Origin: Daucus carota subsp. sativus
Lineage: Eukaryota; Streptophyta; Magnoliopsida; Apiales; Apiaceae
Direction: 5' to 3'
DNA: 64,000 nt
Assembly: GCF_001625215.2 (NCBI RefSeq)
Contig: NC_030385.2
Span: 39,891,598-39,955,597, forward strand
The notes beneath the pieces were generated by a model that saw only the letters and a program-made list of their open reading frames with translations, did not search any database and was not told where the DNA came from. Position 1 is the first letter of the stretch. Each line of letters opens with the position of its first letter. A program made the translations under genes and the position numbers. Below are positions 2,101 to 50,619 of this stretch, piece after piece.

Positions 2101-2109
2101 ACTTAAATT
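2101..2109. repeat. Left target-site duplication of the MULE
   Basis: ACTTAAATT, identical to 10550-10558. Nine base pairs is the usual Mutator-superfamily length. Confidence 0.9.
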
Positions 2110-2187
2110 GAAAAAAGGCCCTGATTAACCATTTTTCTTGGTTTAATGCCCTGTTTAACAAAATCTGAAAAAATGGCCCAAACTAAC
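2110..2187 (+). repeat. MULE left terminal inverted repeat
   Basis: It starts GAAAAAAGGCCCTGATTAAC and ends near GGCCCAAACTAAC. It aligns along its whole length to the inverse of 10471-10549 with scattered mismatches and a 1-2 base length difference. Confidence 0.85.
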
Positions 2188-2196
2188 AAGTTAAGA

Positions 2197-2382
2197 CGTT
2201 TACCAATTAGCGTTTTAGAAAGGATGTAAACGCTATTTCGTGTAGCGTTTACATGTTTATTGCATTTTCAATTTTAATACGCATCATACAAATAAATCTA
2301 TATAAGGAGACGAACGCTACACGAAGTAGCGTCTGTATAATTTATATACATCACCCAAACGCTACGCGAAGTAGCGTCTTTA
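2197..2382. repeat. Left cluster of AACGCTA/TAGCGTT inverted repeats
   Basis: Three short hairpin-like pairs lie just inside the left TIR and before the PMD gene. The best (2224-2254) is a perfect 12-bp stem ATGTAAACGCTA with a 7-base loop. The other two lie near 2308-2333 and 2358-2381. The cluster ends directly before the TATA-like box at 2390. Confidence 0.8.
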
Positions 2383-2389
2383 TGTTTTG

Positions 2390-2397
2390 TATATATA
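2390..2397 (+). promoter_or_regulatory. TATA-like box of the PMD gene
   Basis: TATATATA occurs about 120 bases before the proposed start codon at 2516 and immediately downstream of the left palindrome cluster. This is a position-based inference with no transcript evidence. Confidence 0.4.
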
Positions 2398-2515
2398 GCC
2401 GCTTTTCAAACTTACCAGTCACAGAACATAAGTGAAGTGAAGGGAGTGAAGTGCTGTGACTGAGAAGCTAAGACTGAAGTGACACGGATTTAAATACAAT
2501 TCAAGCTGATACATA

Positions 2516-5500
2516 ATGGATGTTAATGTAAGTTTACATTACTTTGAAGAATTGCAATTCGATTTATAGTCTTTATTTTGTATTTTGAATCTATGTGCTC
2601 TCTATGTGTTTGTTAAAATGTCTATGTGAATTTACATATGAAGCAGTGGTTAGAAAGAGTAGTCTAATATCAGTATAAATTCACTGCACATTTAGCTTCT
2701 TCTTGAGGTACTTTTAGTATTTTAGATTCTTTGGGCATGTAAAAACGGAGGGAGTAATATACGGCCATTTAAATTAATATATTGAGATTTAAATTAATAT
2801 ACGGAGGGAGTATTTTAGATTCCATTGCAAAGGAGAGGCACTGGATCATGCAGTACACAAAAACCAGACAAAAACATGCGAGCACCAGACTAAAACTAGT
2901 TCAGAGTACTTTCGACATATTCATGATGGCAAAAGCTTCCAACAAACTCTGTACACAAAAACCAGACAAACACAAACCTAGTTCAGAGTACTTTCGATGT
3001 ACGGCTGTTGAGGCTTGTATGTCTGCTGATAATTATATTAAGCCTGTAACAACAGCACATGAAACAGTAAGCAACTACGATGATATTGAGGAACAATCTA
3101 TAATAAAACTCTATACGGGAACTAAGGAGTATCTTTCCCATAAAGAAACCTAAAATTTACCTATATTAATATAATAATCACGATTACAAACTTGAACCTA
3201 CAGAATGCACACAAACAGATATAGATTTACATATACAGTTACAAAACGTCCAAATTCTACTTAAATTCTATGACTAGTAGTAAATTAATATGATGATGCA
3301 AGAGGAACTTATCTACCAGCCCCTTACCTCTACATACTTGAAACTATAAGTAGAGATGTTCAGAGAATTATCACGCATATGCCTGCTTGTGTGCACTATA
3401 TAGCGGAAATTTTACTTGTCTCATTCCGTTTGTCACAGAACAGAATTTTCAGCATTGGCAAAAGATTAACTAGTGAAAACTAAAGAATTGTAAAGCTGAA
3501 ATCTTTGTGATGATCCTCATTATTTGTAACTATGCAAGAGTTCTACATCTAGCATATCTCAAGTTCTCTGACTAAATTTAGCGTTCGCTTTCCTATAATT
3601 CTTTAGTTGTTTAGTTGCTTAGTTGTTTTAATATTAAGTGCTTTAATTAGTTTCTCTCCAAAGTTAGTATGATGTGTTGACTTTGTATATTCATTCATTT
3701 TGTTCACAGGCTATTATTAGAGACCAGGGGCCTCGTGATCCTACCCTTCTACACTTACAGGAGACTCATAGGTCTCGAGCTGTTTGGAGAGCTGGTGGTG
3801 CGCCTTTGCAGACGTTCAGGCGTCGTGATGCCAACCAGTCTGATATGAACATGGATGTTCGACTGATCCCCATTATACAGGCAGCTGGTGTTTATGGGTT
3901 GGCTCGGGTATCCAGTCTGCAGCTTGATTGGAGTTTGATTCGTGCTCTGGTAGAGAGATGGCGACCAGAGACACATTCATTCCACTTGCCTATTGGAGAG
4001 TGTACTATCACATTGCAGGATGTAGGTGTTTTGATCGGGTTACCTATTGATGGACATCCCGTGATGTGTCCTTCCTCCCCTCCACCTGGACAGACTTGGA
4101 TGTCCACCATTGGTCAGATTTTTGGACAGGTTCCTCCACCTAACGTTTTCAACAACGCGAGGATACGGCTGACATGGTTTGAGGGTCTCACTCCACCAGT
4201 ATTACGGGATGATGCAGGGGTTGAGGAGGTTAGGCTTCTTGCTAGGTGCTACTTGATCCAGTTGCTTGGGGGGTCCATGTTCACCGATAATTCAGGTGGA
4301 GCTATACACTCGATGTGGGTTCATTTCCTTCGTGACTTGGATGCCTTTGGAGGTTATGCATGGGGTCCAGCTGTTCTGGCCCGTCTTTATAGGGAGTTGG
4401 ACAAAGGTTGCAGAGCAGGTACTACGGGGGTAGCTGGATGCCTTACCTTACTCCAGCTGTGGGCATGGGAGAGGTTGCCCACTCTTGCCCCCGTTCGTAC
4501 CACAGTTCCCTTAGTGGATGTTGCTTTCTGGCAGGATCAGCTCCAGGGACCACATGGAGTCAGGTACGTAGTAGCTTTCTTTTTACTAGTTTGTCTCTTT
4601 CAAGTTTTGACATGTCTTTTCAAATTGAGTAATGTGTTTTTTTTGAATTCCTATGATGTGTGTAGGTGGCTTGTTGGACATTCCTACCTGGAGTGTGATG
4701 GACGCACCGTGGGTACGGCTCGGATGGCATTGGATGGGCTTGCTCCAGGTCAGTTCATTTGGGAGCCTTATGTTGGCATTATTGACACACTCCCAGACTA
4801 CTGTTTAGCCGGCCGTCCACTCTGGCGCTATCGCGGCCCCATGGTATGTGTTTACATAGTCGAGCCGCATCAGCCGGACAGAGTCGCTAGACAGTTTGGC
4901 ATGATCCAGCGTATTCCAGATCAGCCGCACTACTCCGCGGAGCATCATGCTATGACGCTGAAGGGCCAGAAGTTATTGGATTATGCAGTGACACATCAGC
5001 CGAGTATGGCACTCTGGCATCATCGTCTGGAGCATATATTTACTGATGACTTGATCGATGGTCATGATACAGTCCCGGAGTATATGGATTGGTACCTTCC
5101 TAGGACCGTGAGGTTCGTTAGTCACTTGGGTGCATTGCTCATAGGCCTGGTAAGTATCTTTTCACTATTATATTTGCACTTTCCGTGACCTCATTCCTGT
5201 CTTTTCCTTATAAGTAGTTGTGGTATTAGTTGTATTAGTTGTCATGCTTTATTTCATGAATTCTAGTACCTGATATTTGTATTTGTATTCGTTCTATTTC
5301 AGGGAGTCTCGCTGCAGGCTATAGCAGATGGTACTCGACATCTCCCAGATATGCACCAGATAGCCACTCAGAGTCTACAGGCTATCCGAGATCGGCATGC
5401 ATACGTGTTTCATCAACTTCTAGTTGAGGAGCATGAGGCTGTACATGACGAGGACGAGGAGGATGCAGGAGATAGAGGAGGCCGAGCTGGTGGTGAGAGA

Positions 5501-6145
5501 GGCCGTGGTGGTGGGAGGAGAGGCCGTGGTGCTGGCAGGGGAGCCCGTGATGCTGCCAGGGGAGGACGTGCTCGTGGCAGAGGTGGTCGTGCTCGTGGCA
5601 GAGGAGGCCGAGGCGGTGGACGACTAGTTGATGAGCCGGTTGATGATGCTGATCATGCTGATGAGCAGGATCATGTAGATACAGGCGAGGATGGTGGACC
5701 TGAGTCTTCGACTGCTGCTGCTGCCACAGTTGGCGAGTCTTTTGCTGCTGCTGCTGCTGCTGCCACAGCTACTGCTACTCCCCCTGTTGCTGCTGCTGCT
5801 GCCACAGCTACTACTACTGGTGCCGGTGACTGGTGGCCTAGTTTCTCTCTAGGCCTAAGTTTGCCTTCACAGCCAGTACCTGAGCAGCAGACTTCTCTGA
5901 TGCCAGATACCAGTACAGAGCAGCCTCCTCCTGTTGTGCAGCGTCAGCACAGGATTCGGCCTTGGCATGGTACACCAGAGGTACCCCCTTTTGACTTGGG
6001 CAGCTCTTCACAGTCTACACAGTCTACGCAGCCTAGTCAGCCCGCTACGCAGCCTAGTCTAGCCCCTTTTGACGTCTTTTATGTTCGTCGGTCAAAGAGG
6101 GATAGGAAGGCTCCTGATTGTGGTACTGGTTCACATAGGGGATGA
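2516..6145 (+). CDS. Plant mobile domain (PMD, MAIN-like) protein encoded by the MULE
   Basis: Proposed exons are 2516-2527 (MDVN), 3710-4563, 4666-5149 and 5303-6145, all with GT-AG junctions and continuous frame, giving about 730 residues. The body matches the PMD (aminotransferase-like) family: a start like RDQGPRDPTLLHLQETHRS, then IIQAAGVYGLARV, then LQDVGVLIGLPIDG, then WLVGHSYLEC. The C-terminal exon encodes a Gly/Arg-rich tract (about residues 480-530), Asp/Glu-rich and poly-Ala/Thr stretches, and a basic end with CGTGSH, a tail often seen in transposon-borne PMD proteins. Host PMD proteins MAIN and MAIL1 act in the nucleus with PP7-like phosphatases and affect transposon silencing; the role of this copy is unknown. 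The four-codon first exon is the least certain part; the alternative is an unspliced start at 3674. Intron 1 holds old Stowaway scraps. Confidence 0.8.
2744..2815. mobile_element. Stowaway-like scraps in PMD intron 1
   Basis: ACGGAGGGAGTA occurs twice about 57 bp apart, the typical end of Stowaway MITEs. The full element is not present. From 2782 to 3153 an open frame without recognisable domains contains a repeated CTAGTTCAGAGTACTTTCGA, and I do not treat it as a gene. Confidence 0.4.
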
Positions 6146-6280
6146 TGATATTTGTATGTTTTTGATGACATTTCTAGTGATAGGATGCTGAACTTGTGAT
6201 TTATGATAGCACGGATCTTGTAAATATTTTAATTTAATGTCTTAAGTTTCCGTTTTAGTACAGCGTTATTGTTTTAATAA

Positions 6281-6874
6281 TTAAATTCGCCGACGGTTAG
6301 GGTTTAGGATTGAGGGTGTAGGGCCGGTAGGCCCTACTCCCTCGAGCCTAAACCCTAATAAGCGAGGCTGAAGGGCCGAAGGCCCTGAAGCCGAGACGCC
6401 GGCGGAATAAATAAATTTACAACCGTTAACATTTAGGGTTTAGGTTTGGGTTTTAGAAAGATTCATTCATACTGTATATTAAATTGGCCGACGGTTAGGG
6501 TTTAGGATCGAGGGTGTAGGGCCGGTAGGCCCTACTCCCTCGAGCCTAAACCCTAATAAGCGAGGCTGAAGGGCCGAAGGCCCTGAAGCCGAGACGTCGG
6601 CGGAATAAATAAATTTACAACCGTTAACATTTAGGGTTTAGGTTTGGGTTTTAGAAAGATTCATTCATACTGTATATTAAATTGGCCGACGGTTAGGGTT
6701 TAGGATCGAGGGTGTAGGGCCGGTAGGCCCTACTCCCTCGAGCCTAAACCCTAATAAGCGAGGCTGAAGGGCCGAAGGCCCTGAAGCCGAGACGTCGGCG
6801 GAATAAATAAATTTACAACCGTTAACATTTAGGGTTTAGGTTTGGGTTTTAGAAAGATTCATTCATACTGTATA
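6281..6874. repeat. 198-bp tandem repeat, three copies, rich in telobox motifs
   Basis: Units start at 6281, 6479 and 6677, each exactly 198 bp; the last ends near 6874. Copies 2 and 3 are almost identical; copy 1 differs at a few bases. Each unit carries three TTAGGGTTT/AAACCCTAA teloboxes (plant telomere type) and GC-rich palindromes such as AGGGCCGGTAGGCCCT and AGGGCCGAAGGCCCT. The array lies between the end of the PMD gene and the transposase promoter. Confidence 0.9.
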
Positions 6875-7453
6875 AATTTTTTACAATTTAAATAAATAAA
6901 TAAATAAAATATGTGTAAATAATAAATTTACAATTGTTAATTCAACAAATGTGTTTTGTAATTAAAACGAAATTTCATATGCCCTTTAAAATATGAAATG
7001 CAAAGACAAATGGTAAATTATAAAATTAAAACTGAGAAAATTACAAAATTATTCAATATACATCGCAACAAATCATTTTTAATTCAAACAATTAAAAGAA
7101 ATTTAATATGTCCATTCAAAAATCAGTGTGTTAAATATACAAAAATACAAAATATTAATCAACTGAAAACGCTACTGAAAGTAGCGTTTTATCTGATTTA
7201 TATGCCGTAGGCGCTTTGGCGTCTAGCGTTTTAGTTTAAGCTATGAAAACGCTTTTCTCAATAGCGTTTTGTGGATTAATATAAAGCCTAGACGCTAGTG
7301 CGTCTAGCGTTTTGTGGTTTCTCCCCAGTATACACACTGGCAGTATACACACTGCCAGTATACTCCCATTTCCCCCAAATTGCAAACACAGCTGGTTGTG
7401 CCCTAATTCACCCCAAATCTTCCCTAATTCATACTTCAAACATTCTATAGATC
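6875..7453. other. MULE spacer before the transposase, with middle palindrome cluster
   Basis: AT-rich up to 7160. From 7167 to 7313 there are about four AACGCTA...TAGCGTT type pairs, including AAAACGCTACTGAAAGTAGC. A TATA-like TTAATATAAAG follows near 7276. Then comes a short direct repeat of CAGTATACACACTG (about 7326-7366) and the start codon at 7454. This is probably the transposase promoter and leader. Confidence 0.6.
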
Positions 7454-9833
7454 ATGGCTTCCGGTTCGGGTTCGGGTTCGAAAGCTGGGAATACGGTTGT
7501 TGGATGGATATACTATAATGGTAATATTATCGAATCTCAATTAGAAGGTTTTATTTATGATAAACCTGTTTCAAAGCATGTTAGGTTAGATTTATCTATG
7601 AATTATGCCAATTTATGTGCTTTGTTACATTCCAAGTTGAAGATTGATAGTAGTAGTAGGTTGCGGATATTTTATAGGTCTAAAAATCCCGATAATTTGA
7701 AATTCGGGATTATACCTATTGAGGATGATGATGATGTAGAATTAATGTTTGGTGTTGTGGTGTCAAAAGGGATGCCATTTTTTGTTGAACTTTATGTAGA
7801 GAAATTGTCTTGTGATGGAAATTTGGTAAGGAGTAGTTCGAGTGTGGGGGAGAAGAGTAGTGGGCGTGATTCGGGGGGTAGTCATTTTAGACATGATCAG
7901 GATGTGGGTGATAGCTATATGTCTGTTGATACCTCCCATTTAGAGAGGATGATCTCATTCGACGATGTCGAGGTTGAAAATAATGAGGTCCCGTTGGAGT
8001 TGAAGGAGGGAAGATTATTCAGCACGAAAGAGGATTTGATGCATGTGGTGAAGCAATACCACATTCAGAATCACTTAGAGATTGGAGTGATACGATCAGA
8101 TCCGAGTAGTTGGTATGTTGCTTGCAAGTATAGAAATGATGGTTGTATTTGGAAGTTGAAAGCTAGAAAGAGGACTTCACATGGTAAATTTCAAATTATG
8201 GAGAGTGTAGGACCACATACTTGCTTGAGCACTACCATCACACGAGATCATCCCAACTTGACAGCCTCGGAGATTGCTGGAGTGATTAAATCTCAAATTG
8301 TTGCTGATCCGACAATTAAGGAGAAGGTGTTGTTAGCCACTGCTAAAGATAAGTTTGGATATGAGCCGGGCCGAAAGAAGATTAGGAATGCAAAGAAGAT
8401 TGCATTGGAGGATATTCATGGCTCGTGGGAAGGATCATATGAGGACTTGCCACATTTGATGGAAACTCTTCAGTCCTTCAATGTGGGCACGAAGGTGGAC
8501 TGGTGCTTTAAGGAGGATGATGCAGAGCACCTAGAGGTATGTTCTATCACCGTGTAATTTAATTCATTTTCATTAAGTATTTGGATTCCGTTATTCATTT
8601 TCTAATGTAATGTTTGTTATTTATTTGGAACAGGAAGTGACATTTAGGAGATTGTTCTGGGCTTTTAAGCCATGCATTGATGGCTTCGAGTATTGCAGAC
8701 CCGTCATACTGATAGACGGGACTCATTTGTATGGACCATATCCGGGTGTTCTTCTGAGTGCAACAGCTGTAGATGGTTTTAGTCACATTCTACCATTGGC
8801 GTGTGCTATAGTGGAGTCGGAGAACAACTCTAGCTGGGAGTGGTTCATGGATAGGTTGAGGAGCTTGGTGGTTGGTCGGAGGCACGGGATATGTATCATT
8901 TCTGATAAACATTTAGGGATCATGGCAGCTATGCAGAAGGAGGGATGGTGTGAGCCACTTAATCATCATCGGTACTGTGTGAGACATTTTGCCACAAACT
9001 TTGCCACCAAGTTCAAGAAAGCTGGATTGAAGGATAGATTGGTTGAGTTGGCATATCAGGTCCAGCCTAAGAAATTTGAACTACTATGGGGTGAGTTGTT
9101 GGCACTAGAGCCTCGAGCACTTGCATGGTTTGAGGACAAACCAGTAAGGAACTGGTCACTGGCACATGACTACGAGCATCATCGTTTTGGCATCATGACT
9201 ACCAACCATGCTGAGAGTTGGAACAGCGCAATTGTCGATGCTCGGAGGCTCCCGCTTACTTCATTGGTGCGAGTACTATTCCATAAGACGGTTGAGTACT
9301 TTGATCAACGTCGTCTTGAGATTGCAACACAAGTATCGAAAGGTCAAATTTTCACCAAATATGCATCCCATCTCTTGAACCGTGCTGTAAGACGTTCCAC
9401 GGGTCATAGTGTGAAGATATTTGATCGGGGGACTTGGTTATTCCAAGTAGTTACAAGGAAGGATGGGTTGAAAGGGGGAAACACACACACGGTTCGTCTT
9501 ATGGAGTCTAGTTGTACTTGTGGAAAATTTCAAGCTTATAGAATCCCTTGCTCCCATGTAATTGCATGTTGTTCACATGTGAGGATGGACTTCCATGGGT
9601 TTGTTGGTGATTGGTATAAGTTAGAGAACCAGTCGAAGATTTATAATGGTATCTTTGAGCCAATTCCAAACAAGGGTGATCCTCGATATCCTACCGAGCT
9701 TGCTTTCCCGAGAGTTGTGCATGACCCCGATATGGAGAAGAAGAAGGGGCGAAGAAAAGGAACGAGGTACAAGAACGAGATGGATTTCCAAAGCCGGGGA
9801 AAGCATGGAGGGACTTCATCGAGAGATAGTTGA
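7454..9833 (+). CDS. MuDR-type MULE transposase
   Basis: Exons 7454-8536 and 8634-9833 (GT-AG intron, phase 0) give 760 residues. The order is: an N-terminal PB1-like region (about residues 15-120); a MuDR zinc-binding domain (about 190-280) with CKYRNDGC and HTC; the MULE catalytic domain starting near residue 380 with DGTHLYGPYPG holding the first Asp and ISDKHLGI the second; and a C-terminal SWIM finger CTCGKFQAYRIPCSH (CxCx8CxH). The third catalytic acid is likely the Glu in NHAESWN, but I cannot prove this by eye. The domains and length are those of a full-size transposase with no stops. It cuts and joins the element ends, acting in the nucleus. The start was chosen because it is the first ATG and begins a Gly/Ser stretch typical of the family. 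Confidence 0.9.
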
Positions 9834-10000
9834 TTCTCTAGTTGTTTTTATTGTTGTAGTACTATGGTTCAAGTACAATTTGATATGGTTGTTTGAATTT
9901 GGCGAATATTGTATGAATGATTTATGATATGAATTTGGCTTATGTTATTTATGTAATTTACATTGAATTAGTTTATGTTGTTTAATATATTTACACGGGG

Positions 10001-10450
10001 AAAGCGTTTTGGTTTTTAAGTTGAATTTGGTGTGATTTGGTTTTTTAAGGTGGAATGGCAGTAGCTTCTGGCCACTGGCAGTGGCTCATGGAATTGAGGA
10101 AAAACGCTAGTAGGATTAGCGTTTCATGGTTAAAAACGCTAGTAGGAATAGCGTTTGATGGTTAAAAACGCTTCTGTCTGTAGCGTTTTGATTGTTTTGT
10201 TTTTTGAACAATTTTCCTGCATCAAAACACATCTTTATGTAGCGTTTTGTTTACTAAATAATTTCCACGCACTAAAACGCTTCCCTTTGTAGCGTTTTGG
10301 TTTTTAAAGACAAAAAGCTTCTTCGTGTAGCGTTTTAGCTTTTAATTTTTTTTGCAAACAACTGAAACGCTATTACAGGTAGCGTTTTCTTTTATTTTTG
10401 GCTGTGGACGCTACACGATGTAGCGTTTTTGTTTAAAAACAAAAACGCTA
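10001..10450. repeat. Right cluster of AACGCTA/TAGCGTT inverted repeats
   Basis: About nine short inverted pairs lie between the transposase stop and the right TIR, for example AAAAACGCTAGTAGGATTAG followed by CGTTT, and ACGCTACACGATGTAGCG. Spacing is irregular, about 25-60 bp. This is the densest of the three clusters. Confidence 0.8.
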
Positions 10451-10470
10451 CTACGGGATCGTCTCTATTG

Positions 10471-10549
10471 GTTATTTTGGGCCCTGTTTTGGGTATTTTG
10501 TTATTTGGGGCATTTTAACCCTAAATCTGGTTATTTAGGGCCCTCACCC
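10471..10549 (-). repeat. MULE right terminal inverted repeat
   Basis: Read on the minus strand it starts GGGTGAGGGCCCTAAATAAC. The outer six bases differ most from the left end; the blocks GGCCCT, AATGCCC, AACAAAAT and GGCCCAAA are kept. Confidence 0.85.
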
Positions 10550-10558
10550 ACTTAAATT
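10550..10558. repeat. Right target-site duplication of the MULE
   Basis: ACTTAAATT, identical to 2101-2109 and immediately outside the right terminal inverted repeat. Confidence 0.9.
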
Positions 10559-20400: not shown

Positions 20401-22619
20401 GTAGTGAAGATGGCTAAGGATGCTCACTGGGGTGTGGTAATATCTCAAAGAAGTGGGGAAACTGATGATTCTTTTATAGCAGATTTGTCTGTTGGCCTTG
20501 CAACAGGTCAGATTAAAGCAGGCGCGCCTTGCCGAGGAGAGCGGCTTGCCAAATATAATCAGGTTCTTCTAATTTTTCTTACTTTACAATTTACTTATTG
20601 ATGTCTCGTTCCTTTTGAAATGCAAACTCACTTGTACGCATGCCTATATAATATAACCTAATATAGGTAGCATGTTATAATGATAAAGCTTCCGCTCATA
20701 TACATGAATAATGCGGTGTAACAGCCTTCACTTAACAGTTGCTTGAACGGAGCAAATAGATAATGCATGAATAATATTTTCCTGTATTCAAAATAAATCA
20801 TATTAAAATTAACAACAACAAACATGTCCGATGAACAAAACAAATATTATAAAAGAATAACCAACAAACATACGTCACTAATAGTTAATTTATTGATATC
20901 ATCCATCAATATCATGTCAAGACTTTCTTCTCCCGTGTTTGGATTTGTCGACTCCCACATAGCGGTCTATAACTACCTTTGCTTGCAACAACTTTATTTT
21001 TTTAATACCGTATAAACAGCCTTCACTTATCACCAGAGAGAGGTAGGGTTGTGGTACTGAGAGAGATGAGGTTGTGTTTAGAAGATCCAAAACCCTACAA
21101 CCTATAAGGGTATTTATAGGTGTAGAGAGACTTGTGTGCTACTCTTTCGCATAATTAAATAATCTGAAACAAAATTAGATTACAACTTTCAAGCTGTTAT
21201 ATTCCATATATAATCTGAAACAAAATTAGATTCTGAAACTTGCTTCTAGTATATCCGAAACTAAAAAAGGTAGTTCTAATTTTTGATATTTTTCATCCGA
21301 AAATTCCAGAAAATTAGAAAAATAGACGGAGCGATGTGAGAGGCGCCACCTATACGCCCCTCGCTTCTCCTTTATATAGAAACAGAATCAGATTAAAACT
21401 TTCAAGCTACTATATTCCATAAATAATCTGAAACAAAATCAGATTCTGAAACTTGCTTCTAATATATCCGAAACTAAAAAAGGTAGTTTTAATTTTTGAT
21501 ATTTTTCATCCAAAAATTCCAGAAAATTAGAAAAATAGAAGGAGCGATGTGAGAGGCGCAACCTACACGCCCCTCGTTTCTCCTTTATATAAGTATATTG
21601 ATCATCCGAAAATTCCAGAAAATTAGAAAAATAGAACGGAGATATGTGGGAGGCGCCACCTACACGCCACTCGCTTCTCCTTTATATAGAAACAAAATCA
21701 GATTAAAACTTTCAAACTACCGTATTCCATAAATAATCTGAAACAAAATCGGATTCTGAAACTTGCTTCTAATATATCCGAAACTAAAAAAGGTAGTTCT
21801 AATTTTTGATTTTTCTATCAAAAAATTCCAGAAAATTAGAAAAATAGAACGGAGCGATGTGAGAGGCGCCACCTACACGCCCCTCGCTTCTCCTTTATAT
21901 AAGTATATTGATTGGAGGTAGCCGATGCCTAATCTACCTTTGTGTAATGTATTGAGCAAAGAAAGTTGGGCAAAAGTGAGACAACTTGTTCACAGTAATC
22001 ATACTAATGATTTTTGGAATTTTCCGACATGTAGTGCTTATAGTGAGATTTGGATGTTTTTATTTACCATGATAGGTGCAAATCACTTTCTTTCATTGAG
22101 TTATACCATTCTTCATGTTAAACGGTGAATGAGTTAAATTGATTTCTTGTGACAATGACTAAATGGTTTATCTACTCTAAATAATAGAAGAGCTGCCATT
22201 TGGCCAACTTGAAAATAGGCCAAAGCTATATGTTTGTTCTGTTTCTCTACCTGCATGTTCATGTCGTTTGCTACTAGAATCATTTTCCTTCCTGTTTCTG
22301 GAAAGAGATAGATACTTGTTGTATGAGCTACTGGTAATATATGTATAGTCGTATAGAGCCATTCTATTATTTAGTATTAACTGACATAATATATGCAGGG
22401 AAATACATTTGTAAATCCTACATACCTCTATCCAATTTGTTTACATTGTTGCAATGGAAACAAGGACCTGCTTCAGTTTTCACAATTTTTAAAATAATCT
22501 GATGGTATGTTATATAATACTATATAAAGATTATAAGGTCCTTTGTGCAGTTGCTCAGGATTGAAGAAGAGCTTGGTGATCAGGCAATATATGTTGGCGA
22601 GGACTGGAGGCAATCCTGA
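11482..22619 (+). CDS. ENO3: Enolase 3-like (cytosolic enolase ENO3/ENOC type)
   Basis: Thirteen exons: 11482-11586, 11709-11863, 14005-14179, 15338-15409, 15507-15623, 16377-16457, 18059-18135, 18205-18308, 18586-18684, 18821-18906, 19995-20081, 20365-20562, 22551-22619; 474 residues. The ENO3 N-terminal extension ([18 protein letters not shown]) precedes the enolase fold. Metal ligands are kept (IDVAAT, SIEDPF, VVGDD), as are the lysines in LVLKINQ (K386) and GQIKAGAP (K437). Two catalytic positions differ from classical enolase: NVGDEGG reads NVGEDGG (also so in Arabidopsis ENO3), and the His of SHRSGE is Gln (Q414). The normal reaction is 2-phosphoglycerate to phosphoenolpyruvate; this copy may have little or no activity. 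Introns after 15409 and 18135 start with GC. Several introns hold transposons. Confidence 0.92.
12300..13153. mobile_element. Stowaway-like element with internal insertion, enolase intron 2
   Basis: Left end CTCCCTCGTC after TA at 12298-12299; right end GACAGAGGGAG before TA at 13154-13155. Stowaway MITEs are usually 100-300 bp, but this unit is 854 bp and encloses a separate TCGGGT-rich segment (about 12662-12927). I therefore infer a nested insertion. Confidence 0.55.
12662..12927. mobile_element. Degraded hAT-like TCGGGT-rich element
   Basis: It starts near TAGGGAATG and ends GTCATCCCTA, resembling the TAGGGATGACAA ends of a common plant hAT MITE. The core is rich in TTCGGGTAT/CCCGTATCC. 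No matching target duplication is visible, so the edges are approximate. Confidence 0.45.
13307..13630. mobile_element. MITE with AGAGTAAAG termini, enolase intron 2
   Basis: Perfect 9-bp ends AGAGTAAAG/CTTTACTCT are flanked by TA on both sides. The inverted similarity continues inward through GGAGACC/GGTCTCC and CAGAGACC/GGTCTCTG. It is 324 bp and non-coding. Its TIR resembles the element at 46156-46573. Confidence 0.65.
14947..15060. repeat. TAA/TTA trinucleotide-rich tract
   Basis: An AATAATAAT and TTATTATTA microsatellite in enolase intron 3. It is low complexity and has no coding content. Confidence 0.6.
15678..15772. repeat. CT/CCCT-rich microsatellite in enolase intron 5
   Basis: A compound pyrimidine tract of CCCTCTCT, CCCTCC, a run of C and then (CT)n. 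It yields spurious proline/serine and arginine/glycine frames on the two strands. Confidence 0.85.
15781..16001. repeat. 110-bp tandem duplication in enolase intron 5
   Basis: The segment beginning TTTACGTGAATACTTGAATA occurs at 15781-15890 and again at 15891-16001. The copies are identical except for one extra base (GCTTAAC versus GCTTATAC), so the duplication is recent. Confidence 0.9.
17147..17382. mobile_element. Stowaway MITE, enolase intron 6
   Basis: Starts CTCCCTCTG after TA (17145-17146) and ends AGAGGGAG before TA (17383-17384). It is 236 bp with an inner GTCACTTTTGAC / GTCAAACGTCATATA pair. This is a Tc1/mariner-type non-autonomous element. Confidence 0.75.
21170..21912. repeat. 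Tandem 212-bp repeats in enolase intron 12
   Basis: The marker AGAGGCGCCACCTA-like block recurs at about 21341, 21553, 21651 and 21863, that is, at spacings of 212, 98 and 212. Full units run from a CTGAAACAAAATCAGATT block to CTTCTCCTTTATATA; the third copy is partial. No protein is encoded. The source element is unknown. Confidence 0.75.
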
Positions 22620-31208: not shown

Positions 31209-33628
31209 CTAAAAATCATTTTTGGGCACAAGGTAAACCCTAGCCTTTATAACAGAACCACTGGCCAGCTTAAACCCAGGGCTAACTGGAAACCCCACTA
31301 CCTGACCACCTACAACTCTTCCACCCGGAAACCTCACCACACTCTCCATGTACTGAGAATGGAAATCTGCACCCTTGCTACCTTCAAAATAACTAGGTGG
31401 TGGCTCCAACGAGAATGCAAGCAAATGCAGCAGCCAAATTGCTTTTGCAAGCCCCAGAAAATCCCCATAGAATCGACTCCTAGGGTGATTTCCAGCCAAA
31501 ACTTGACAGCGCTGTTCCAAATCACCAAACAAAGACTCCTCCATTTTGGGATGGATAATGGAGAGATATTTTTTACAGCAGAATTTGCCAAAGTCACAAG
31601 TGGGAAGAATGCCAAGGAGTTCAATGGGGTCCATTGCTTTCATGTCTCGGTACTGAGTGAAGCAATCTCGGCGGAACTGATCAGGGTGCAGTAGAGATGA
31701 GAGGCTGCCATCCATGTAGAATGTCTCATGGTCAAAACCTTGGAAGAATTTCCGGTTGACATACGATTCCATTGCGTACTTTGCATGATTTGGTCCCACA
31801 ATGGAGTCCATAGTAGCATTGGTAGTTGCCCCTGCAGCAGCTTCAATTGATCTTACAGCAGCTGTAATGTCCCAGTGGGCTGATTTCATGAGTGAGAGAA
31901 GGAGAGCTGTAAATGACTTTGATGCTTCTCTTACCATGCTCATTGTTGCTTCAAATACCTCTGGTGCCGGCGACAGTGATACTGGACATTGGTATATATA
32001 GTTTAGATAGATTGCAACATACCAAAATTTCATGCAAGACAAGCTTTTGGTGTTAAAAAAATACTTTCTCTAACATAAGATAAAGATACCGAATGACAAT
32101 TGTCTTGCCACAATAAAATAAGAATAGCTAGGAACTTGATTAACCTTGAAGATGACACCTTGTTAGCAAAAGATAATCAAGTGTGAAGTTAGAAATTAGA
32201 GTTTAATAGAGGATGTCTTGAACCTGTTTCAATGCTATTACAAAATTGTTTAAGTTCTAATCACTAAAGGACACTTTCTACTCGGGCCTCATTTACACAT
32301 CTTTAATACAACTGTATATATGCTCAAGTTGTAATAAGTAGAGAACACTTTCTACTCACACATCTTCACATTGTGTCCGAAGATTATTGCTTTTAACTTG
32401 TAACTTATAACTGTCTCGAAGTCAGAATCTTAATTCCTAGTTCAAGTAACATCATAATCTAAGAAAAGTATGTGAAGCAATGCTTTATAACTGTCTCGAA
32501 GTCAGAATCTTAATTCCTAGTTCAAATCATATAACATCATAATCTAAGAAAAGTATGTGAAGCAATGCTTATAACATTTTTACAAAGTAATCATCCCTGG
32601 ACTGAGTCAATAAATACAAAAAAGTACAAGCACAAAAGAAATGCATACATTGTATAAAATGATAACCCCTAACAGGATGATGCTTGGACTAGATCTTAAC
32701 ATAATTATAGCACTCTGATTAACTTAACAAAAATATATTCAAAATTTAATTTTGGGTTATCTTTTTCACTCTCAACCCCAACTCCAACTGTTTTCTACAA
32801 AATTAGGCGACAATTTCTCACACAAAAACACAACCCATGACCAAGAACCCAGCTTGATCCACAAAATCTAAACATAGCACCACATGAATTAATTAACTCA
32901 AATGCAATTCCAAATGACTTATTCGATAGAAATTTATATGCAAAATGTATGTAGAAATTACCAGGAGTCTGAGTACTGCACCCAACTCTCCGCTTGGACT
33001 GATGATGGCCCCTCCCATTTTTCTTCCCTCCACTCCCACCAGTCACCACCACCGCATTCTTCAACTTGTCCTTCAAATTCTCCACTTCAACTTCCTTCAC
33101 CTTAAGCTCCCTCTTCAACTCCTCCACCGCGGCCTCATAAGGCGCGACAACCTCCCTCAAAGTAGCTCCCACAACCCTCCTCCCCCTCTCCCCACCCACA
33201 TTCTTCCTCCTAAACCTCTCCCTCAAAACCCCAATTCTCCGCAGCTCAGCCACCACCGCCGCATCGCAAACCCGCATTCTATCAGGATCCCAAGGACAAT
33301 GCGCCTCCTGTAAACTCACATAAGCCTTCTTCACAGCCGAAAACGCCTCAAAAACCTCACCAATCAACACCTCCACATCCCCAAATTCCCCATCACTTCT
33401 CCGTGCCCTGGCAATGCTGCCGTTTTCGGTGTTTTCGATATCTTCTTCTTGCTGGGCTAAGTACTCGGAGATTCTGGGGTTGGGTGGGTAGTCATCAGAG
33501 TCGTCGGAGTCGTCGGAGGGGGAGATTTGGGAGGAGTGGTGGCGGTCGGCGGCGAGAGGGTGGAGGAAACAAGAGGCGGTGACACGGTGGATGAGATCGG
33601 AGAAGTTGGAGACTTTGTTAATGGCCAT
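31209..33628 (-). CDS. DUF641 protein (GIL1 / IRK-interacting protein-like)
   Basis: Two exons on the minus strand, 32962-33628 and 31209-31981, joined in phase 1 (GT-AG), give 479 residues. The first exon has a Ser/Asp-rich stretch (about 38-46) and the DUF641 start VLIGEVFEAFSAVKKAYVSLQEAHCPWDP (about 87-115, quoted only as position), then a Lys/Glu-rich coiled coil ending VEELKRELKVKEVEVENLKD. The second exon begins SLSPAPEVFEATMSMVREAS and ends KARVYLVPKNDF, with the family's FDHETFYMDG-like and PGFKLASGSVIKARVY segments. GIL1 acts in light control of gravitropism and IRKI binds the IRK receptor kinase. The function of this copy is not proven. Confidence 0.85.
32405..32571. repeat. 80-bp duplication in the DUF641 gene intron
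   Basis: TTATAACTGTCTCGAAGTCA starts both copies (32405 and 32485), and both end in AGTATGTGAAGCAATGCT. The second copy has a small insertion after TTCAA. Confidence 0.85.
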
Positions 33629-41015: not shown

Positions 41016-41942
41016 ATGGCCTTAGTAGCTGAAGCCCCTGGTTACATTCAAGTATTTTCTGATGGATCTGTAAAGCGCTTTGCACCAGATATCATCGCTC
41101 CTTCGGTTAACCCCACACATGGATTTATGTCCAAAGATGTGGTGATTGATTCTTCCAAACCCATAACAGGAAGAGTGTTTGTACCGGAAAACATATCATC
41201 AAAGAATGCAGTACCTGTTCTTGTTTACTTCCATGGCGGTGGCTTCAGCATTGGCTCTACTACGTGGAGCGGATACCATTATTTTCTAGGAGGCTTATCT
41301 GTAACGTGCAAATGCGTTATCCTTTCAGTGGACTACCGTCTGGCTCCTGAGTATAAGCTTCCAATTGCATATGAAGATTGCTACAGCTCTCTGGCTTGGC
41401 TTTGTAATGCAGTGAGCCATGAACCATGGCTTCAAAAAGCAGACCTCTCCCGTGTATTTCTTTCTGGAGATAGTGCTGGAGGGAACATTGCTCATCATGT
41501 CGCGGTTAAAGCAATTAGAGACAAAGCTTGTCCAATTAGGGTCAAAGGTATACTTCCGGTTCATCCTTATTTTGGAAGTGAAAAGAGGACTAAATTAGAG
41601 CAAGAAACTGGCGACGTTGGGGAAGTGGCGATGAATGACTTCTTCTGGGGTTTAAGTCTGCCAGAAGGATCAAACCGGGATTTCTATGGTTGTAACTTTG
41701 AAAATGGTGACCTTTCTAAGGACGAGTGGGCTCGTTTTCCAGCAGTGGTGGTGTATGTAGGTGGATTGGACTTCCTCAAGGAAAGAGGGGTTATGTATGT
41801 GGAGTTTCTTCAGAAGAGGATCAAGGGGGTTAAGCTGGTCGAAGCTGAGGAAGATACACATGTATATCATATCTTTTACCCAGACTCGGATGCTTCTCAT
41901 TTGCTTCAGGGCCTGATGAGTGAGTTTATAAATAGCTTTTGA
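41016..41942 (+). CDS. Carboxylesterase of the plant CXE family (alpha/beta hydrolase 3)
   Basis: A single exon encodes 308 residues, a usual CXE length. The oxyanion hole motif HGGG is at 73-76 and the nucleophile Ser153 is in GDSAGG. The acid is Asp252 in GGLDFL and the His is probably His282 in EEDTHVYHIF. All triad parts are present, so an active esterase is likely; the substrate is unknown. It is not a GID1 gibberellin receptor, because the catalytic His is kept and the GID1 N-terminal lid is absent. Many CXE genes are intronless, as here. No signal peptide is seen, so it is likely cytosolic. Confidence 0.92.
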   Translation: MALVAEAPGYIQVFSDGSVKRFAPDIIAPSVNPTHGFMSKDVVIDSSKPITGRVFVPENISSKNAVPVLVYFHGGGFSIGSTTWSGYHYFLGGLSVTCKCVILSVDYRLAPEYKLPIAYEDCYSSLAWLCNAVSHEPWLQKADLSRVFLSGDSAGGNIAHHVAVKAIRDKACPIRVKGILPVHPYFGSEKRTKLEQETGDVGEVAMNDFFWGLSLPEGSNRDFYGCNFENGDLSKDEWARFPAVVVYVGGLDFLKERGVMYVEFLQKRIKGVKLVEAEEDTHVYHIFYPDSDASHLLQGLMSEFINSF

Positions 41943-48978: not shown

Positions 48979-50619
48979 ATGACTTCTCCACCTCAACCCA
49001 AGACCCGAACCCGCACCCACAGCCACTCCCGATCCCGCCGCCTCTCCGCCTGTTCGCGCCACCCCTCCCAACCCATCACCGGCTTCTGCCCTCTCTGCCT
49101 CCACGAGCGTCTCTCCGGCCTCGAATCTCCCGCCAAAGCCTCCACCTCCGTTTCCGGACCCTCCACTTCCCAATCGGAGCTCCGACGTACCAAATCAGTC
49201 TCTATCCGCAACTTCGATGCTTCCTCCTCGGAGCCTCGCCGCCATTCTTGTGATGTTAGAGGTAAAAACACTCTCTCCCACCTCTTTGATGTTGATGATG
49301 AATGTAAGTCTTCGTGTCGAGAAATTCGTGTCGAATCGAAAAGTCTAGAGAGAAATGTTATTGATAGTGTCGATGTAGAGAGTAATGTGGGGGGTGTTAG
49401 GGTTTGTAGTGATGAGATTGATGAGGATGTGATGACTATGAAGGAGCATATAGATCTCGAGTTAAGGAGTGGGGGGAAGAGTAAGAAGGATTTTAATAGT
49501 GTTGCGGGGAGTTTTAGGGTTGTTGCGTCTGTGTTTTCGAAGAAATTGATGAAATGGAGGGTGAAGTCGTCGAGTAGGAGTAGGAAGAAGGTTGGTGGTG
49601 GAGAGAGGGAGGTTGGTGGGGGTGATGAAGGTGGAGTGATTGGGAGGGAGACGGTGTCGGAGGTAGGGGAGTATGGATTGGGGAGGAGGTCCTGTGATAC
49701 GGAACCTACTAGGTTTTCGGTGGATGGGAATAGGATATCTGTGGATGATGTGAGGTTTTCGTTTGATGAGCCGAGGGCTTCTTGGGATGGTTATTTGATT
49801 GCAAGGACTATTCCGAGGTTGACGCCGATGTTTTCTGGGGTGGAGAATATGATTTTGGGTAGGCCGGAAGAGCAGATGGGTTCAATAAAGGAAGATGAGA
49901 AGGATGAGATGACTTCTGGTTTGTCGGGCCAGAGTAATTCGGATTCATCGTCTTCGCGTAGGCAGAGTAGTTTTGATCGGACGAGTTCGATCAGAAGTGG
50001 TTCTATGAAAGCGACGGGGTTGCAGGGTGATGAAGCAAAAGTGGCAGTGAATTCGAATGTTTTTGGTGGAAGCAAGTTGGTCATTACAGAGAAAGAGTTG
50101 AAAGATTGGCATATGAATTCTATTAAAGGTGATCAGCCAAGGAGGAGCTTTGATTCTGTACCCAAGGATGGCAGTGTTGATGCTTTGATTGGGTTCAAAA
50201 AGTTGACTAAGTGGAAGATGGCGGGTAACATATGGGGTTTCAAAAGTAAGCTTGGTGACAAAAAGACAGAAACTTTTGTAGAAGACAGAAGTCACGAACG
50301 TGTTGCTGAGCCCGACAAGGAGGAAAACAGGGAGATTGGAATAGAGAATGGGGGCTTCAGTGGCATGCTTGCTCGTAGCAGTAGTTGTGTTGCTGCTAGG
50401 AACCCTTGCAAACCGATTGCATTGGATGATGGTATGGGTGCAAAAGAGCTTGTGCTGGACCGAAATAGAAGTACAAAATATTCTTCCTCCAACTTTGACA
50501 ATGGCCTTTTGAGGTTCTATTTGACTCCATTCAGGAGCTATAGGAAGACTAGATCTGGAAAAGGTAGGTTAAAGAACTCCTCACCTGCTATAGCCGGGGA
50601 GGTTTTAAGGCTGAACTGA
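48979..50619 (+). CDS. OCTOPUS-like protein (DUF740)
   Basis: A single exon encodes 546 residues. The N-terminal segment at 21-46 carries the family's Cys/His pattern (SACSRHPS then FCPLCLHERL). Ser- and Arg-rich linkers follow, then a segment with Asp/Ser repeats (VDGNRISVDDVRFSFDEPR) and the conserved WKMAGNIWGFKSK. OCTOPUS and its paralogues are plasma-membrane-linked polar proteins that promote protophloem differentiation and dampen BIN2 signalling. Which paralogue this is cannot be told. A (CT)n tract precedes the gene at 48918-48942. The high GC content at the start falls off after the first 300 bases. The start was chosen as the only ATG before the conserved motif. Confidence 0.85.
   Translation: MTSPPQPKTRTRTHSHSRSRRLSACSRHPSQPITGFCPLCLHERLSGLESPAKASTSVSGPSTSQSELRRTKSVSIRNFDASSSEPRRHSCDVRGKNTLSHLFDVDDECKSSCREIRVESKSLERNVIDSVDVESNVGGVRVCSDEIDEDVMTMKEHIDLELRSGGKSKKDFNSVAGSFRVVASVFSKKLMKWRVKSSSRSRKKVGGGEREVGGGDEGGVIGRETVSEVGEYGLGRRSCDTEPTRFSVDGNRISVDDVRFSFDEPRASWDGYLIARTIPRLTPMFSGVENMILGRPEEQMGSIKEDEKDEMTSGLSGQSNSDSSSSRRQSSFDRTSSIRSGSMKATGLQGDEAKVAVNSNVFGGSKLVITEKELKDWHMNSIKGDQPRRSFDSVPKDGSVDALIGFKKLTKWKMAGNIWGFKSKLGDKKTETFVEDRSHERVAEPDKEENREIGIENGGFSGMLARSSSCVAARNPCKPIALDDGMGAKELVLDRNRSTKYSSSNFDNGLLRFYLTPFRSYRKTRSGKGRLKNSSPAIAGEVLRLN

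Follow-up and report, generated by a model that had tools for sequence, protein, structure and literature searches.

What a PMD gene does inside a transposon, and why it is kept there, is the question raised by an element of the carrot genome. The role of the PMD is a question in transposons and in host silencing proteins alike: MAIN and MAIL1, two such host proteins, carry the domain according to parts of two papers (PMC8616336, PMC5418596), and PMD genes in sense or, often, antisense orientation within plant Mutator-like elements (MULEs) are tabulated in passages of Dupeyron 2019 (PMC6446971). The window analysed here, a stretch of 64,000 nucleotides of Daucus carota subsp. sativus (C5:39891598-39955597 in a searched genome of 441,086,747 bases in 11 contigs), holds an intact-looking MULE of 8,440 bp at 2110-10549, in which a PMD gene stands ahead of a transposase gene. 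From the sequence evidence, we consider it quite probable that the whole is best explained as a two-gene MULE in which the PMD protein would be an accessory factor and regularly spaced dyads would be putative sites of a dimeric protein.

The element is bounded by a perfect 9-bp target site duplication, ACTTAAATT, at 2101-2109 on the left and 10550-10558 on the right, as the initial annotation had described, and this length lies within the 8-11 bp given for MULEs in the consulted part of PMC6446971. The matching ends of that annotation stood in part. Terminal inverted repeats, a feature of most MULEs, are present at 2110-2216 (+ strand) and 10442-10549 (- strand), as seen among the inverted pairs and when the outer 100 nt are aligned with gaps, but they are imperfect, and the longest ungapped arm pair linking both ends measures 49 nt at 73% (2168-2216 with 10442-10490, among the best 25 of 91 inverted pairs). 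The repeats inspected in the window comprised 20 of 41 direct families and 25 of 91 inverted pairs; among these, the PMD part is not surrounded by separate terminal repeats of the kind that a nested insertion would have.

The first gene matches the PMD profile of Pfam (PF10536) at E 2.5e-75, with 254 bits against a cut-off of 34.9. Spliced from exons at 2516-2527, 3710-4563, 4666-5149 and 5303-6145 on the + strand, it reads as 730 amino acids without a stop. The four-exon structure proposed at the outset holds for exons 2 to 4, which are open and have splice signals, PF10536 falling on exons 2 and 3 and an arginine/glycine-rich tail on exon 4; exon 1, with its four codons (MDVN), is a prediction, the start-and-donor pattern being found in three of 11 full copies, all belonging to the type 1 defined below. 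Intron 1 is barely alignable among copies, and in the window its predicted extent includes repeats with GGAGGGAGTA at 2740-2820, which resemble the end of a miniature inverted-repeat transposable element. A Pfam match of exon 4 to EccD (19.3 bits, cut-off 30) and the single PDB match of the PMD by sequence (E 1.6) were taken as chance, and an AlphaFold model of the PMD (single sequence, intron 2 read through) was uninformative, with a mean predicted local distance difference test score of 38.6.

The transposase gene follows on the same strand with exons at 7454-8536 and 8634-9833, giving 760 amino acids without a stop. Exon 1 carries DBD_Tnp_Mut and a PB1 match under its cut-off, exon 2 the MULE domain and SWIM, and four Pfam domains pass their cut-offs in all (DBD_Tnp_Mut, MULE, Transposase_mut and SWIM; MULE, PF10551, with 65.8 bits against 27.6). 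Candidate DDE motifs were picked by eye in the translation, and the exon-2 frame returned no PDB match by sequence up to E 1. Both the full-length transposase and its union with a PMD gene in one element and one orientation, as first annotated, were thus borne out by the domains and gene models. It is confirmed that the element is a Mutator-like element with two genes and an autonomous make-up, and we infer that it may be active.

Whether the pair is peculiar to this copy can be deciphered from the rest of the genome. The comparison took in 27 of 30 PMD loci (L035, L037 and L038, distant or partial, were set aside) and 24 of 30 transposase loci (L063-L068 being more distant). A transposase of the family lies downstream on the same strand within 30 kb in 23 of the 27 PMD loci, at 4.0-5.8 kb in 21 of those 23 and at 9.3 kb and 19 kb in the others, the 9.3-kb case being a second PMD ahead of one shared transposase. 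Seen from the other gene, 22 of the 24 related transposase loci have a PMD upstream on the same strand. At L019/L020 (C7:6834766, C7:6838730), two PMD genes 4 kb apart precede one transposase and represent a duplicated PMD segment.

Twelve copies were checked for duplications at the expected ends. Seven have a perfect 9-bp duplication; of the remaining five, two show a 9-bp match once the ends are moved by two bases in total, two have none or a poor one, and one lacks its 3' end in the available sequence. Eleven copies were covered completely or almost so. The transposase shows neither a stop nor a frame shift in any of them, and PMD exons 2-4 show neither in nine; the broken PMD frames are those of C9a (one stop) and C1b (a frame shift), while about 1 kb each is unread in C4a and C7a, the gap in C4a covering the end of PMD exon 4. 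Because the gene pair and its order are repeated at many places in the genome, the two-gene arrangement is not due to chance, and the recurring paired copies with duplications at expected ends rule out a one-off capture of the PMD. Nor is this a Pack-MULE, where a captured gene occurs in one or a few copies and lacks constraint of its own. The search for further copies holding both genes, suggested with the initial annotation, therefore shows the PMD to be a standing second gene of an element family.

That the PMD is nevertheless a passenger host gene without a role would accord with the host gene pieces that MULEs often carry (PMC6446971, in part) and with the broken PMD frames of some copies. 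Selection values, which are pairwise Nei-Gojobori estimates with bootstrap intervals and not tree-based, speak against it. The ratio of nonsynonymous to synonymous divergence (dN/dS) of the PMD core between the window copy and copy C6a is 0.37 (0.28-0.51), with dN 0.122 and dS 0.332, far below 1 and with an interval that excludes it, which bears out a standing gene under constraint. The same gene order recurs in a distant relative, D1 (C5:15722360, L034), at dS ~1.6; compared with D1, dN/dS is 0.20 (0.12-0.31) for the PMD over 276 codons and 0.14 (0.09-0.19) for the transposase over 713 codons, with 2.5% and 0.4% of bootstrap samples, respectively, saturated and excluded. Since both ratios are low at such a distance and the gene order is equal, the sequences argue that both genes have long been constrained and their order retained. 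Positive selection on the PMD was not seen in the pairwise dN/dS comparisons.

The association also extends beyond the family. Genome-wide profile matches were pooled, with nine plus two second-fragment rows dropped, same-strand matches within 2.5 kb merged and 18 places kept from one overlapping PMD listing, yielding 157 PMD and 250 MULE places; these counts are lower bounds, drawn from the best 145 of 290, 102 of 787, 117 of 515 and 150 of 813 scored candidates. A MULE transposase lies no more than 12 kb from at least 76 of the 157 PMD places, against a mean of 2.2 and a maximum of 8 in 300 trials of random placement, which was uniform for the PMDs and ignores the clustering of transposons. 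This excess likewise weighs against a passenger, a reading that we disfavour and regard as very improbable. Of those 76 pairs, 52 are convergent, 23 are tandem with the PMD upstream and one is divergent, and all 23 tandem pairs are the window family or its relative D1.

Among the convergent pairs, S1 (C1:31391500-31400812) and S2 (C5:14404666-14413500) are identical over the 7,282 bases read, and their copying is therefore probably recent. The PMD clusters at C4:30571752-30593029 and C1:46978968-47001737 have the top Pfam scores, with no MULE transposase detected up to 12 kb from them, and are possibly host PMD genes; C8:28907164 (L087) was dropped as a host gene, a convergent MULE transposase lying 7.9 kb away.

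What the two genes might act upon is suggested by a second regularity of the element, a 21-bp dyad of the form AACGCT-N9-AGCGTT. Eight exact dyads occur in the window, all within the element, against none in 100 shuffles; allowing up to two mismatches raises the window count to 16 against an expected 1.35, and a single one of these falls outside the element. They form three clusters. The 5' cluster (2229-2378) has one exact dyad at 2229-2249 and two with one mismatch at 2313-2333 and 2358-2378. The middle cluster, just upstream of the transposase gene (7168-7311), has exact dyads at 7168 and 7248, one with one mismatch at 7291 and one with two at 7210. The 3' cluster (10103-10427) has five exact dyads at 10103, 10135, 10167, 10276 and 10366, two with one mismatch at 10314 and 10407, and one with two at 10226.

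The spacing is fixed throughout. The whole genome has 553 exact N9 dyads, compared with 8 instances of the reversed control pattern, while other spacings stay at the control level (N10-30, 152 against 150; N0-8, 43 against 36). The 11 family copies hold 60 of the 553, and all their convergent AACGCT/AGCGTT pairs at start distances of 7-24 share the distance 15. With the core relaxed to ACGC/GCGT, 136 of 195 convergent pairs of 8-44 bp in these copies are 19 bp long (ACGC-N11-GCGT) and 38 are 12 bp long. All 136 fall in the three noncoding clusters: the 5' end has 24, the stretch ahead of the transposase 48 and the 3' end 64. Each cluster recurs in all 11 copies, and no relaxed dyad was found in exons, introns or the 198-bp repeat described below in the parts read of these copies. 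The extended dyad approximates AAACGCTAC-N5-GTAGCGTTT, its inner ACGC/GCGT being set by the search, and one CpG lies in each arm. In D1, ten of 11 AACGC pairs are at 21 bp, five of them before the transposase, five near the 3' end and none at the 5' end; the base after ACGC in the half-site is C in 12, T in 6 and A in 2 of 20, compared with T in 168 of 172 in the window family.

Because the dyad length is fixed, a dimer on the helix is suggested, and a dimeric element-encoded protein is most likely what the dyads would bind. The dyads could instead act as hairpins in RNA or single-stranded DNA, since the base frequencies would allow pairing between arms of about 9 bp that flank a 5-base centre; the exact total length, with other spacings at control level, suits a helix-bound dimer better than a loop, and we hold hairpins to be rather improbable. 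Since the sites lie at both ends and before the transposase gene, a single dyad-reading protein would mark the ends and also control transposase expression. In the mechanism that we propose, the transposase would mobilise the element through its ends, the dyads would serve as putative sites of a dimeric element-encoded protein at either end and ahead of the transposase gene, and the PMD protein would be an accessory factor encoded by the element, retained by selection within the family and shuffled among its members.

Which protein would read the dyads is a narrower matter. The transposase, through its N-terminal DNA-binding domain, is the first candidate, with about an even chance, because it has the DBD_Tnp_Mut match, because it has passed between types with a common dyad half-site, and because a gene-less copy keeps the sites. 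The PMD is a somewhat unlikely reader, and the same holds for a host factor or no reader at all. The gene-less copy, at C5:25925286, is 1,164 bp long, is flanked by the duplication CAATTTTTT and retains the ends, the 198-bp repeat and three exact dyads, with no match to the PMD or transposase gene; retention of the ends and dyads is what a requirement in cis would predict. A genome search with the 5' end (2110-2200) gave 24 matches, 15 beside a PMD match and nine not. A fuller reading, in which the transposase would use the dyads as subterminal and promoter sites while the PMD acts otherwise, for instance on the host PMD silencing pathway, as a decoy that does not bind DNA, has a little less than an even chance; besides the points above, it would suit the top-scoring PMD clusters away from detected MULE transposases, which may be host genes, and it is countered by the convergent relatives, whose transposase is 56% identical to that of the window and which lack dyads.

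The exchange just mentioned is seen when the PMD genes are grouped. Type-1 PMDs are those of the window copy, L010, L011, L012 and L032; most others diverge from these by about 15% in both core exons and introns, whereas the transposases of young type-2 copies have 98-99% DNA identity to that of the window. At sites where the type-1 copy C1a differs from five type-2 copies, the window copy is type 1 at 318 of 345 in the PMD gene (3642-6146) and type 2 at 45 of 52 in the transposase gene. Its noncoding parts are type 1 at 56 of 63 sites (6147-7287), 21 of 25 (7288-7453) and 112 of 129 (9834-10549), and the poorly alignable leader at 147 of 233. With 22 paired copies including an outgroup, a type-1 clade is rejected by the transposase data (approximately unbiased test, p 2e-5), and the transposase tree in turn by the PMD data; support is low for many of the inner branches in both trees. 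Because the site pattern and tree tests disagree between the two genes, the window copy is a mosaic of a type-1 PMD and a type-2-like transposase. Across 20 pairs, PMD and transposase identity to the window copy showed no correlation (Spearman -0.27, p 0.24).

Faster evolution of the PMD was ruled out as the cause of its divergence from type 2, because introns (83.8-85.8% in young type-2 copies against the window) differ about as much as core exons (84.4-85.1%), and because dS between the window and L014 is 0.33 for the PMD and 0.03 for the transposase. Nor is the PMD type strictly tied to every noncoding part, as C2a, L062 and L056 show: C2a has a type-2 PMD, yet its 3' end is closer to type 1, and the noncoding parts of L062 and L056, which pair with the type-1-like PMDs L012 and L032, are dissimilar.

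These patterns bear on the possibility that the PMD is a sequence-specific anti-silencing factor in the manner of VANC, which would read the noncoding dyads and strip silencing marks from its own family. The dyads lie in noncoding parts, as VANC targets do in the consulted part of PMC5735166; each dyad arm has a CpG; in the window copy the PMD lineage and the noncoding DNA go together, the transposase gene having been swapped; and the idea is already published as speculation in passages of PMC5418596 and PMC8616336. Against it stand the half-site shared by type-1 and type-2 copies though their PMD cores are at dS ~0.33, the 3' end of C2a, the dissimilar noncoding parts beside L012 and L032, and the convergent copies S1 and S3 without dyads. 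We know of no demonstration of DNA binding by any PMD, which we also count against it. Such a VANC-like factor is thus unlikely, although that the PMD counters host silencing by any route is less so, if still doubtful. Improbable, in turn, is the full form in which transposon PMDs would be self-specific anti-silencing dimers that read CpG dyads, a second and independently evolved counterpart of VANC exchanged as a module; that such a factor would have been drawn from the very protein family that hosts use for transposon silencing is improbable to the same degree.

Several observations also weigh against the two-gene reading with an accessory PMD and dyad-bound dimers. The interval of dN/dS for PMD exon 4 (window against C6a, 0.67, 0.40-1.18) includes 1, so purifying selection there does not follow. 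The 12 relaxed dyads in 1,676 noncoding bases (shuffle mean 0.01, maximum 1 in 1000 shuffles) come from bases picked because the dyad clusters sit there, and the relaxed search fixes ACGC and GCGT, whose letters are conserved by construction. The gene-less copy may be a mere deletion product that retained its ends. AGCGTT is absent from the convergent PMD-MULE copies S1-S3 (0 of 3) and the relaxed dyad from S1 and S3 (0 of 2), the right ends of these copies being unread; a PMD therefore does not need the dyads.

Against known systems, a MULE carrying a PMD and the anti-silencing idea are of an already known kind. The consulted passages of Ikeda 2017 (PMC5418596) place the first description of the PMD in a rice MULE, report PMD-MULE fusions and propose anti-silencing, an idea also found in part of a 2021 review (PMC8616336); a 2022 article in EMBO J on eudicot anti-silencing, to which a passage of PMC13317346 refers, could bear on novelty. 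With the PMD-carrying groups in passages of Dupeyron 2019 (MULE-Monocots, MDR, MUDRAVI2, MUDR, VANDAL, MULE-Solanaceae_1 and MuDR-9_OS; PMC6446971), the window element shares a SWIM-finger transposase, a 9-bp duplication and a PMD within the same ends as the transposase, while dyad arrays are unmentioned in the passages compared. The MULE-PMD proteins of grasses and Amborella (PMC5418596, in part) likewise join a PMD to a MULE transposase with anti-silencing proposed, but as fusions, whereas the window element has two separate genes. Maize MuDR, with mudrA and mudrB, is also a two-gene MULE (PMC6446971, in part); in the window element, the second gene is a PMD.

VANDAL21 or Hi of Arabidopsis, with VANC, resembles the window element in carrying an additional gene and in repeating a short motif across its noncoding regions (parts of PMC5735166 and PMC10398659). 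The window element differs in its recognisable inverted ends, in a fixed-spacing dyad whose form is unlike the VANC motifs, and in lacking a VANC domain match: DUF1985 and DUF287, the VANC-type domains named in part of PMC5735166, were absent from a Pfam scan up to E 1 of four open frames (PMD exons 2-4 and the transposase). The interpretation offered in the initial annotation is partly supported: the PMD is a standing second gene, and the VANC analogy is strengthened by the dyad arrays and weakened by the missing domain. A likeness of mechanism, by analogy only, is offered by the second protein of maize En/Spm, which belongs to the CACTA superfamily and has unrelated proteins: TNPA acts as a dimer on repeated subterminal sites and on the promoter, to which it binds, and relieves methylation. 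The regular fixed-spacing dyad arrays seem to be the new part of the finding, no report of them in MULEs having been found in the open-licence literature by a search mostly aimed at PMD and carrot MULEs. The family offers unbroken two-gene copies, a gene-less derivative, two PMD types on a nearly single transposase and a candidate binding site, and the function of the PMD in a transposon is therefore directly testable.

Between the two genes, positions 6280-6874 hold a 198-bp repeat in three near-identical copies, and its arms are self-complementary. The unit has 281 matches in the genome, many of those listed being outside two-gene copies, and near D1 (L034) it is 86-88% alike. Because it is so similar there although the coding dS is ~1.6, the unit has been either conserved or passed from one element to another.

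Ordinary plant gene parts nearby place the element in a region of the window that contains genes: DUF641 and GIL1/IRKI C-terminal matches on the - strand at 31209-33628, an Abhydrolase_3 gene at 41016-41942 and a DUF740 gene at 48979-50619. A tandem repeat with periods of 213, 97 and 310 bp occupies 21166-21912.

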